From positions 124,001-188,000 of the forward strand of contig PBWR01000006.1 in NCBI GenBank assembly GCA_002727315.1: a DNA stretch of 64,000 nucleotides, in the 5' to 3' direction. Numbering within the stretch: position 1 is the first letter of the stretch; each line of letters opens with the position of its first letter. The notes under the pieces are model-generated. The model was not told the DNA's origin, made no database searches, and saw only the letters and a program-made list of their open reading frames with translations. Source of the DNA: Alphaproteobacteria bacterium (GTDB lineage Bacteria; Pseudomonadota; Alphaproteobacteria; UBA6615). Made by a program: the position numbers and the translations under genes. Positions 3,556-5,941 of the stretch are shown here, piece after piece.

Positions 3556-3639
3556 GGGCCGGGTCCGGCAGCGGAGAGGATTGCGCGCGAACTTATCGCA
3601 ACCGGGCCCCGGCTTGAACCGGGTCAATGGTCTTTGGGC

Positions 3640-3770
3640 AAAAGAAAACCGCTCCGGAGGGGGGAGGCCGAAGCGGTTCAGTCAAAACAGGGAGGCATCA
3701 AAAGGGATCTGGGTGGATCCCGAGATGGTTCATGGGAGGAGCCATCACACCCAGATTCGCAGACCTGCGC
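3640..3770 (-). ncRNA. Candidate small RNA with CU-rich anti-Shine-Dalgarno loops and intrinsic terminator
   Basis: Read on the minus strand, a perfect 9-bp stem (ATCTGGGTG 3756-3748 with CACCCAGAT 3715-3707) encloses an inner 5-bp stem (GATGG/CCATC) whose loop contains CTCCTCCC (3741-3734). A second single-stranded GCCTCCC follows (3696-3690). An 11-bp hairpin (3678-3668 with 3657-3647, one G-U pair, loop rich in CCTCC) is followed by TTTTCTTTT. This is the layout of alphaproteobacterial sRNAs with anti-SD loops (alpha-r14 / cuckoo type). Alternatively it is an attenuated leader of metY, since transcription runs toward that gene. The 5' end is estimated. Confidence 0.5.
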
Positions 3771-3804
3771 TAACAAATGGTTAACGCCGACACCGAATAC
3801 GAAA

Positions 3805-3829
3805 AACGGGGCCGAAATTCGGCCCCGTT
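3805..3829. terminator. Bidirectional Rho-independent terminator after the TrcR-like gene
   Basis: A near-perfect palindrome (AACGGGGCCGAA / TTCGGCCCCGTT) lies 28 nt past the stop of the leftward TrcR-like gene. It is followed by a T run on both strands (TTTTTCG on minus, CTCTTTTT on plus). It insulates the TrcR-like gene from the sRNA/metY unit. Confidence 0.8.
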
Positions 3830-3856: not shown

Positions 3857-4510
3857 TTAGCTTTCGCCTTGATTGTTCCCGCCGATCCGCACATCTGCCA
3901 TCCAGTCGGGAATCCGGCTCTGTGAGGGCTCCTCTTCCGGGATCAGGTCGGCACTGATCGGGCGCCGATCGTCATCGGCCGGCTTGCGGCCCGCCTTGCG
4001 CCCCTTCTCGACAGCCTCGTCGAGATCGACCTGACGGCAGAGCCCGATCGTCACGGGGTCGCGCGGCTGAATCTGCGAGGAGTTCCAGTGGGTCCGGTCG
4101 CGAATGGCCGTAATGGTCGGCTTCGTCGTGCCAATCAGCTTGCCGATCTGCGCATCGCTGAGTTCCGGGTAGTACCGGATCAGGTACGCAATGCCGTCGG
4201 GCTTGTCCTGGCGTTTCGACACCGGCACGTAGCGCGGTCCCTTGGTGCGCTTCACTGGCGCCGGGTTGTCCGTTTCCTTGAGTTCCAGTCGCGCAACCGG
4301 GTCGGCCTGACAGCGCTCGATCTCGGACCATTCCAGCTGGCCGTTCGCCACCGGATCGAGGCCGCGCATACCCACGCCGACCTCACCATCGGCGATGCCC
4401 TGAACTTCAAGCATATGCAGGCCGGTAAACGCGGCAATCTGCTGAAACGACAGCGACGTGTTTTCCACGAGCCATACCGCCGTGGCCTTCGGCATCAACG
4501 GAGGTGCCAT
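3857..4510 (-). CDS. DUF1013 protein, TrcR-type cell-cycle transcriptional regulator
   Basis: The product is 217 residues and matches the alphaproteobacterial DUF1013 family, called cell-cycle transcriptional regulator TrcR in current annotations. Family hallmarks are the N-terminal KATAVWLVENTSLSF segment, the central PERYxPxSKRQDKPD-like block, and the helix-turn-helix-like stretch LSDAQIGKLIGTTKPTI. The last 40 residues are charged and low-complexity. The ATG at 4510 has a strong site (AAAGGAG, 5 nt spacing); the open frame to 4561 lacks family sequence. A sigma-70-like promoter lies at 4590-4618 and a terminator follows the stop, so it appears monocistronic. The DNA target is not deducible. 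Confidence 0.85.
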   Translation of the reverse strand: MAPPLMPKATAVWLVENTSLSFQQIAAFTGLHMLEVQGIADGEVGVGMRGLDPVANGQLEWSEIERCQADPVARLELKETDNPAPVKRTKGPRYVPVSKRQDKPDGIAYLIRYYPELSDAQIGKLIGTTKPTITAIRDRTHWNSSQIQPRDPVTIGLCRQVDLDEAVEKGRKAGRKPADDDRRPISADLIPEEEPSQSRIPDWMADVRIGGNNQGES

Positions 4511-4589
4511 AAAATCTCCTTTCGCCGGTCCGCCGCGCCGGGCGCGACCGGACCCGCCCAATTCGTCATCCCTGTGGGGGTTCCGCCCC

Positions 4590-4637: not shown

Positions 4638-5633
4638 TCACGACATATCGAGAATGATCTTTCCGATATGGGTGCTGGATTCCATCAGTCCGTGGGCCTC
4701 GGCAGCCTGCGCCAGTGGGAATGTGGCGTGAACAATCGGCGCCAGTTCCCTCGCCGCAATCCGCGGCCAGACCTTCTCGCGCAGGGCCTCGGCGATCTCG
4801 GCCTTCTGTGCCACCGAACGCGGGCGCAGGGTCGATCCAGTGATGGTCAGGCGGTTCATCATGACCTTCGCCAGGTTGATCTCCGACTTGGCGCCGCCCA
4901 TCAGTGCAATTTGCACGATCCGCCCATCGGGATTGAGCGCGGCGATATTGCGCGGAAGATACTCCCCGCCAACCATGTCCAGGATGACATCGACCCCCTT
5001 GCCGTCGGCCTCGATCACCTCCTCGAACGCGTCCTCGCGATAGTTGATCGCCTTGGTCGCCCCGAGAGACTCACAGAATGCCGCCTTCTCCGCCGTGCCG
5101 ACCGTCGTAAAGATCGCCTCGGCACCGAAAGCCTTGCAGAGCTGGATCGCCGTCGTGCCTATCCCGCTCGAGCCGCCATGGATCAGAACCCGCTCGCCGG
5201 CGGAAAACCGCCCGCGCTCGAAGACGTTGGTCCAGACGGTGAAGAAGGTCTCGGGCAGCCCGGCGGCCTGGATCATGTCGAGCCCGTCGGGCACCGGCAG
5301 GGTCTGGGGCGCGGGTGCGGCGACATACTCGGCATACCCGCCACCGGCCACAAGGGCGCACACGGCGTCACCGACCTCGAAACCTGCGCAATCAGGGCCG
5401 AGCGCGGCAACCTCGCCCGCCACCTCGAGTCCGGGCAGATCAGACGCGCCCGGCGGCGCCGGATAGAGCCCCTTGCGCTGCGCCACGTCGGGGCGGTTAA
5501 CGCCCGCGGCAGCCACCTTGATCAGGACCTCACCCGCGCCGGGTTCCGGGACCGCCCGTTCGGCGGGCTTCAGCACCTCGGGTCCGCCGGGCCCGGAAAT
5601 TTCCACCGCCTGCATCGTCGCCGGTAACGTCAT
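4638..5633 (-). CDS. NAD(P)H-quinone oxidoreductase, zinc-independent MDR family (PIG3-like)
   Basis: The product is 331 residues, normal for the quinone oxidoreductase branch of medium-chain dehydrogenases. The N-terminal GroES-like domain includes AAGVNRPDVAQRKG, and the Rossmann part has IHGGSSGIGTTAIQL near residue 150 for NADPH binding. The zinc-ligand cysteines of alcohol dehydrogenases are absent, as expected for this branch. The ATG at 5633 (MTLPATMQAVEI) has GAGGAGAG upstream; an internal ATG at 5615 is a weaker alternative. The substrate is probably a quinone or an enone, but this is unproven. Confidence 0.85.
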   Translation of the reverse strand: MTLPATMQAVEISGPGGPEVLKPAERAVPEPGAGEVLIKVAAAGVNRPDVAQRKGLYPAPPGASDLPGLEVAGEVAALGPDCAGFEVGDAVCALVAGGGYAEYVAAPAPQTLPVPDGLDMIQAAGLPETFFTVWTNVFERGRFSAGERVLIHGGSSGIGTTAIQLCKAFGAEAIFTTVGTAEKAAFCESLGATKAINYREDAFEEVIEADGKGVDVILDMVGGEYLPRNIAALNPDGRIVQIALMGGAKSEINLAKVMMNRLTITGSTLRPRSVAQKAEIAEALREKVWPRIAARELAPIVHATFPLAQAAEAHGLMESSTHIGKIILDMS

Positions 5634-5743
5634 CGTCTCTCTCCTCGACAAATATCGAACTATCGGACAGTTGCGGGCGCAATCTAGGCGCGTCAAACTT
5701 CATGCACAACGACCAGCCGGTCCCATTGGCAGGGAGCAGAAAC

Positions 5744-5941
5744 ATGAGCCTGGATGACGATCTGGAACCCACGTTTCAGGGACACAAGAAATCCTTCGAC
5801 GAGATCAACGTTGAATCCCTGTCGATAGAAGAGCTAAAGGCCTATATCGAGCACGCCGGAAACGAGATGGCACGCGCGGAAGCGGAGATCGAAAACCGGG
5901 AATCCCTGCGCGGCGACGCCGACGCATTGTTCAAGAAATAG
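5744..5941 (+). CDS. DUF1192 family small protein
   Basis: The product is 65 residues, acidic at the N-terminus (MSLDDDLEP) and helical at the C-terminus, with the family core LSIEELKAYIEH followed by alternating Glu/Arg (AEAEIENRESL). DUF1192 proteins are short alphaproteobacterial proteins of unknown function and often coiled-coil. The ATG at 5744 follows GGGAGCAGAAAC. It ends 29 nt before the acyl-CoA synthetase, so the two may be cotranscribed. Confidence 0.8.
   Translation: MSLDDDLEPTFQGHKKSFDEINVESLSIEELKAYIEHAGNEMARAEAEIENRESLRGDADALFKK

Follow-up and report, generated by a model that had tools for sequence, protein, structure and literature searches.

A Likely BjrC1505-Type Small RNA Gene Between trcR and metY in an Alphaproteobacterial Genome

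Genomic Context

The window analyzed here, 64,000 nucleotides long, comes from an incomplete 2.24 Mb assembly (G000) whose near relatives are marine Rhodospirillaceae/Alphaproteobacteria MAGs. Conservation, alignments, covariance models, and gene neighborhood point to a small RNA (sRNA) gene of about 109 nt at 3640–3748 on the minus strand, related to the Rfam family BjrC1505 (RF02356). Its features (3770–3640) share the strand of the downstream neighbor metY, an O-acetylhomoserine sulfhydrylase gene (NF006004; 2251–3555, minus strand) that starts 84 nt past the sRNA. The upstream neighbor is trcR (PF06242, DUF1013; 3857–4561, minus strand; exact start codon uncertain), followed by a palindromic intrinsic terminator (AACGGGGCCGAATTTCGGCCCCGTT plus TTTTT; 3805–3829, minus strand), and a similar hairpin occurs in the aligned loci. 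Beyond trcR are a zinc-type quinone oxidoreductase/alcohol dehydrogenase-like gene (4638–5696, minus strand) and a gene for a DUF1192 protein (5702–5941, plus strand), both of which also occur at BjrC1505 loci. Rfam gave zero matches in the window at the gathering score.

Between the trcR terminator and the sRNA is a conserved box, TTAACCATTTGTTAG (3770–3784, minus strand), of the form TTAA-N7-TTAR. In 47 of 51 homologous loci, the upstream sequence matches TTAA-N7-TTAA at 7 or more of the 8 positions, against 5.1 expected from shuffles. The sequence GTTAACCNNNNNTTAR is found once in the whole G000 assembly, at this box. Closer to the RNA, the alignment suggests a −10-like position at 3753–3758 (minus strand), which reads GAATCT here and GATATT in several relatives. 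From its placement we infer that the RNA starts at about 3748–3746.

Sequence Motifs and Secondary Structure

An earlier note on this DNA described an sRNA-like locus with CU-rich anti-Shine-Dalgarno (aSD) segments and its own terminator, and the minus strand carries all of these motifs. CCTCC occurs four times in one 122-nt segment (dinucleotide-shuffle frequency 0.005), a count that is reached nowhere else over this length in the whole window, whichever the strand. The minus strand folds at −48.6 kcal/mol (z = −3.41) and none of 200 shuffles was as stable; the plus-strand fold has a z of −1.8.

The first hairpin, SL1 (3724–3746, minus strand; GATGG-loop-CCAUC in the RNA), is the inner 5 bp stem of the note, GATGG/CCATC (3746–3742/3728–3724), around CTCCTCCC (3741–3734, minus strand). 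Its loop thus holds the first aSD segment, CUCCUCCC (3734–3741, minus strand). The second hairpin, SL2 (3704–3721, minus strand), is GGGAUC-CACCCA-GAUCCC, with arms at 3721–3716 and 3709–3704. An unpaired linker follows, GCCUCCCUGUU (3686–3696, minus strand), which is the most conserved segment in our alignments A1 and A2 and the presumed seed. Within it is the further unpaired GCCTCCC (3696–3690, minus strand) that had been picked out before, and GCCTCCCTGTT spans 3696–3686. The terminator hairpin CCGCUUCGG...CCGGAGCGG (3649–3676, minus strand) has a C-rich loop and is followed by TTTTCTTTT at 3648–3640, the U-rich tail UUUUCUUUU of the RNA (minus strand). Its cells are paired at 98.5% (A1) and 99.1% (A2), with compensatory changes. 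The hairpin is thus conserved as well as present, but the CCTCC in its loop is not conserved; relatives have CCCCCTT, TTTTCTT, or TTTCCTT there.

The note also proposed a 9 bp outer stem (3756–3748 with 3715–3707). This stem can form but is not conserved, with 65.2% of cells paired vs. 61.3% in shuffles. In the isolated 5′ part it beats SL1 plus SL2 (−16.6 vs. −12.8 kcal/mol) if its 5′ arm is transcribed, and SL1 plus SL2 is the best fold once the RNA starts at about 3748–3746. The 5′ arm overlaps or precedes the predicted −10/start region, and the stem competes with the conserved SL2.

Conservation and Covariation

By DNA similarity, the element is found in 14/24 family genomes. In 15 related loci the RNA lies between trcR and metY in this same order, which is the synteny that the note had proposed to check. 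Three loci (L023–L025) keep trcR-metY without the RNA, which indicates that the RNA is a discrete module. At E ≤ 0.1, a covariance model built from the 15 trcR-metY locus sequences only (R1) has matches in 20/24 family genomes, convincing ones in about 17, with one strong copy per genome.

The model with three hairpins (SL1 of 5 bp, SL2 of 6 bp, and the terminator) has 90.1% of cells paired in the 15-locus alignment, in which MAFFT misaligned SL1 in six rows. Its covariation score is 0.230 vs. 0.171 in shuffles (0/500). Applied to the raw MAFFT alignment, RNAalifold recovered the terminator alone, because SL1 is off by one column there. Among 44 diverse members from across the class, in an alignment fitted to the three-hairpin structure, the three helices are paired in 92% of cells, and 182 cells are changed on both sides vs. 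46 in shuffles (0/500). The compensatory stem changes looked for in homologues are therefore present in the supported three-hairpin structure. Conservation across the class is highest in the unpaired (G)CCUCCCUGUU. On this comparative evidence, the locus is very probably a genuine conserved small-RNA gene.

Of the aSD segments, the linker is conserved, as is that of SL1 in most close relatives. In L012–L014 the SL1 aSD is lost and CCUCCC is found in the SL2 loop instead; CUCCU occupies the SL2 loop in typical BjrC1505 matches. SL2 is formed from other positions in L011 and L016. In one copy (L015 1501–1696; G019:C124) the aSD motifs, the stems, and the upstream box are all disrupted; this copy is apparently decaying or on a contaminant contig. 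The 608-nt trcR-sRNA interval of L006 carries a palindromic insert of about 270 nt (CTTCGAGACGC...) that resembles a dispersed repeat.

Relationship to BjrC1505

RF02356 scores 17.7–19.7 bits on the window, below its gathering score of 50 bits, and its full-length matches in relatives (31.1, 28.3, 28.2, 26.8, and 21.6 bits) are all below 50 as well. A search of the class matched RF02356 in 31/289 genomes, 14 over the cut-off. R1 recovers all 29 of the RNA-like RF02356 loci that we fetched, in the same places (30 matches in L097–L125, two of them in L117), and has no match in the 30th, L126. There RF02356 gives a false positive (1501–1620, 30.6 bits), having matched a tRNA-like sequence with a terminator behind it. 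The two matches in L117 (13–128 and 215–332) are tandem BjrC1505-like RNAs on one contig, and this genome has a third (G199:C15). R1 lacks specificity: its matches in the class extend to 37 genomes and include suhB- and SorX-type RNAs at up to 42.5 bits. Assignment to BjrC1505 therefore rests on the neighborhood and box, not on the score. Of 14 new R1 matches that we examined, five are in a BjrC1505-type neighborhood (L243, L244, L245, L248, and L249) and several of the others are suhB- or SorX-like.

At least one of the quinone oxidoreductase, DUF1192, trcR, metY, and DUF1465 genes is within about 1.5 kb in 25/30 RF02356 loci. Matches over the cut-off immediately precede metY in L101, L102, L103, and L105, and are near trcR in L104 and L109. 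The order is metY-RNA-trcR in L061, and L026 bridges two arrangements, with quinone oxidoreductase-trcR-RNA-DUF1465 in line. The window RNA shares these neighbors (quinone oxidoreductase, DUF1192, trcR, and metY) with BjrC1505 loci over the cut-off. It also has the BjrC1505 architecture of two 5′ hairpins, the unpaired UUUGA(C/U)GCCUCCCUGUU, and a Rho-independent terminator. Both carry a GTTAAC(C)-type box where the matched region starts; the upstream GTTAAC-N-TTA(A/G) box is a shared feature recognized here and not a published criterion. Unlike BjrC1505, the window RNA scores under the Rfam cut-off, has the extra CUCCUCCC in the SL1 loop, and is flanked in line by trcR and metY, with no DUF1465 downstream. 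The best-supported and simplest identification is a diverged BjrC1505 orthologue, which by Rfam's own cut-off is not a member. New here are the extension of this obscure family to many alphaproteobacterial families and the recognition of its conserved locus. BjrC1505 has hardly been studied and is named by a single paper in the literature that we searched, and diverged members are missed by its Rfam model. The neighborhood and box shared across many alphaproteobacterial families make the RNA traceable in cultured relatives, where its regulator and targets could be tested.

The position of the RNA directly upstream of metY, on the same strand, had suggested to the earlier note a possible attenuator linking the RNA to methionine synthesis. 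On this reading the hairpins and terminator would act in cis as a leader that gives methionine-dependent read-through. In its favor are the short distance (84 nt), the order kept in 15 loci, and the presence of metY after the BjrC1505-type RNAs of L101, L102, L103, L105, L114, L061, and L245. In most BjrC1505-type loci, however, DUF1465 or some other gene follows the RNA in place of metY, which makes such an attenuator unlikely, and L023–L025 keep trcR-metY with the RNA absent. A short reading frame from the ATG in SL1 varies from 4 to 64 codons across loci and is broken; the leader peptide MAPPMNHLGIHPDPF in the window was rejected, as its frame is not conserved. We noticed no antiterminator pairing, and there was no Rfam match to a SAM or other riboswitch in the window; we found neither a conserved leader peptide nor a ligand-binding fold. 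In addition, a conserved block, CGGTTCA...GATAAG (3592–3621, minus strand; GGTTCA-N17-GATAAG), lies between the sRNA terminator and metY and resembles a control region of metY itself, probably a promoter or operator. Overall, we consider a metY leader quite unlikely. The block, as CGGTTCA-N17-GATAAG(TTC), is kept in most trcR-metY loci, and GATAAG is also found in the RNA-less L023.

Comparison With Other sRNA Families

The locus had also been likened to alpha-r14. RNAs of the ar14/cuckoo family (NfeR1, CcsR) are of similar length (about 110–125 nt), have several CU-rich aSD motifs, and presumably share the mode of action, and a search of 401 bases matched ar14 (RF02344) weakly over its full length (24.7 bits, E 0.01). 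The window RNA does not, however, reach the ar14 cut-off of 58.8 bits; matches over the cut-off were found in 0/24 family genomes, and G000 had none at E ≤ 0.1. In ar14 RNAs three hairpins each carry CCUCCUCCC, and the promoter is of the form CTTAGAC-N17-CTATAT (PMC10746234). In the window RNA the SL1 loop has CUCCUCCC only, the linker CCUCCC is unpaired, and the SL2 loop has none; the promoter differs too, with the box TTAACCATTTGTTAG and no CTATAT at that spacing. CcsR copies adjoin DUF1127 genes (PMC10253847), unlike the trcR and metY neighbors here. Membership in this family is very improbable.

The suhB/mmgR (alpha-r8) and SorX RNAs have similar 3′ parts. Like suhB, MmgR, and SisA-D, the window RNA has an unpaired CCUCCCU right before the terminator, and like SorX (RF02784), whose consensus includes it, ACCUCCCUGUU ahead of the terminator. 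suhB (RF00519) matches several relatives at 20–24 bits, and R1 cross-matches suhB and SorX loci. A CCUCCCU(GUU)-plus-terminator module common to suhB, SorX, and BjrC1505 underlies such cross-matches between covariance models. The scores are under the cut-offs, at 14.2 bits for the window and at most 23.9 for relatives against 41 for suhB, and at 14.0 bits for the window against 46.6 for SorX. Alpha-r8 RNAs are usually (in most species) beside an N-formylglutamate amidohydrolase gene, are shorter, and have another 5′ part, whereas trcR and metY are the neighbors here; SorX is a 73-nt model with a different promoter and locus. Neighborhood sets the groups apart. By eye, a TTAA-N7-TTA box is missing from the 60 nt upstream of the nine new R1 matches that lack the neighbor genes (several of these matches are suhB- or SorX-like), whereas all five with the neighbors have a TTAA-N7-TT-type box (TTAA-N7-TTAA/TTAG, or TTAA-N7-TTCA in L243, L244, and L248). 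It is improbable that the window RNA belongs to either group, and a diverged BjrC1505 homologue is the reading that we retain. The shared 3′ module is also seen in L242 and L250–L255. A match to ctRNA_p42d (27.2 bits) was dismissed as a generic terminator hairpin plus tail.

The Upstream Box and CtrA

The TTAA-N7-TTAR box resembles the CtrA motif. A search of G000 with an approximate CtrA query did not find CtrA; three OmpR-type regulators are present, and on reading none is CtrA-like. Nor did this query find CtrA in several 96–100% complete relatives in which the RNA is retained. We therefore rejected CtrA as the certain regulator, this role being unproven. The box is kept in nearly all genomes without a detected CtrA, with the RNA and box of G019 looking decayed. 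As judged from the sequences, the persistence of a CtrA-like box even where CtrA was not found is a new observation. Besides G000, the relatives in which the search did not return CtrA are G004, G005, G007, G008, and G019–G021, a pattern of patchy loss or assembly gaps; the sister genomes G022, G023, G003, and G001 have CtrA at about 71–72% identity. Literature searches on the box motif, and on DUF1465 together with sRNAs, gave nothing useful.

A broader role can be imagined. BjrC1505-type RNAs might be widespread alphaproteobacterial sRNAs under the control of a CtrA box, fixed next to DUF1465, the quinone oxidoreductase gene, and trcR, a cell-cycle gene. Through them, mRNAs with strong Shine-Dalgarno sequences would be globally repressed in step with the cell cycle or growth state, and another regulator would have taken over the box where CtrA was lost. 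We regard this as speculative and rather unlikely in full.

Proposed Mode of Action and Candidate Targets

The window RNA, with its demonstrated conservation, structure, neighborhood, upstream box, and terminator, is probably the product of a stand-alone sRNA gene (3748–3640, minus strand), a lineage-diverged BjrC1505 homologue with its own promoter that acts in trans on ribosome-binding sites through its CU-rich segments. Transcription would begin at this promoter, marked by the conserved TTAA-N7-TTAR box, and would end at the Rho-independent terminator. In the predicted RNA, the unpaired GCCUCCCUGUU would lie between the pair of 5′ hairpins and the terminator, and the SL1 loop of most close relatives would expose CUCCUCCC as well. 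SisA represses many mRNAs via an aSD 10-mer (PMC12559287). By analogy with SisA and NfeR1 (PMC10746234), the CU-rich segments (CCUCCC motifs) should pair in trans with the Shine-Dalgarno regions of target mRNAs and block ribosome entry. We infer this pairing and its targets, as well as a protein that reads the box and any chaperone. CcnA of Caulobacter (PMC8959179), with its CCCC loop, is a possible parallel, and we found no link to it.

In the family, ACAGGGAGG-N(2,12)-ATG is far more common than its reversed control, which mostly reflects ordinary Shine-Dalgarno sequences. From genome to genome, complementarity at the candidate targets is retained only in part, and the recurrent sites do not occur in every genome. 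The best candidate sites are of the type AACAGGGAGG, e.g., before a TRAP-transporter binding protein gene and pdhB. The site before the former recurs as AAACAGGGAGG in G000, G020, G021, and G005, and that before pdhB in G000, G020, G022, and G023. Candidate sites also recur at a 2Fe-2S subunit gene and panE in some genomes.
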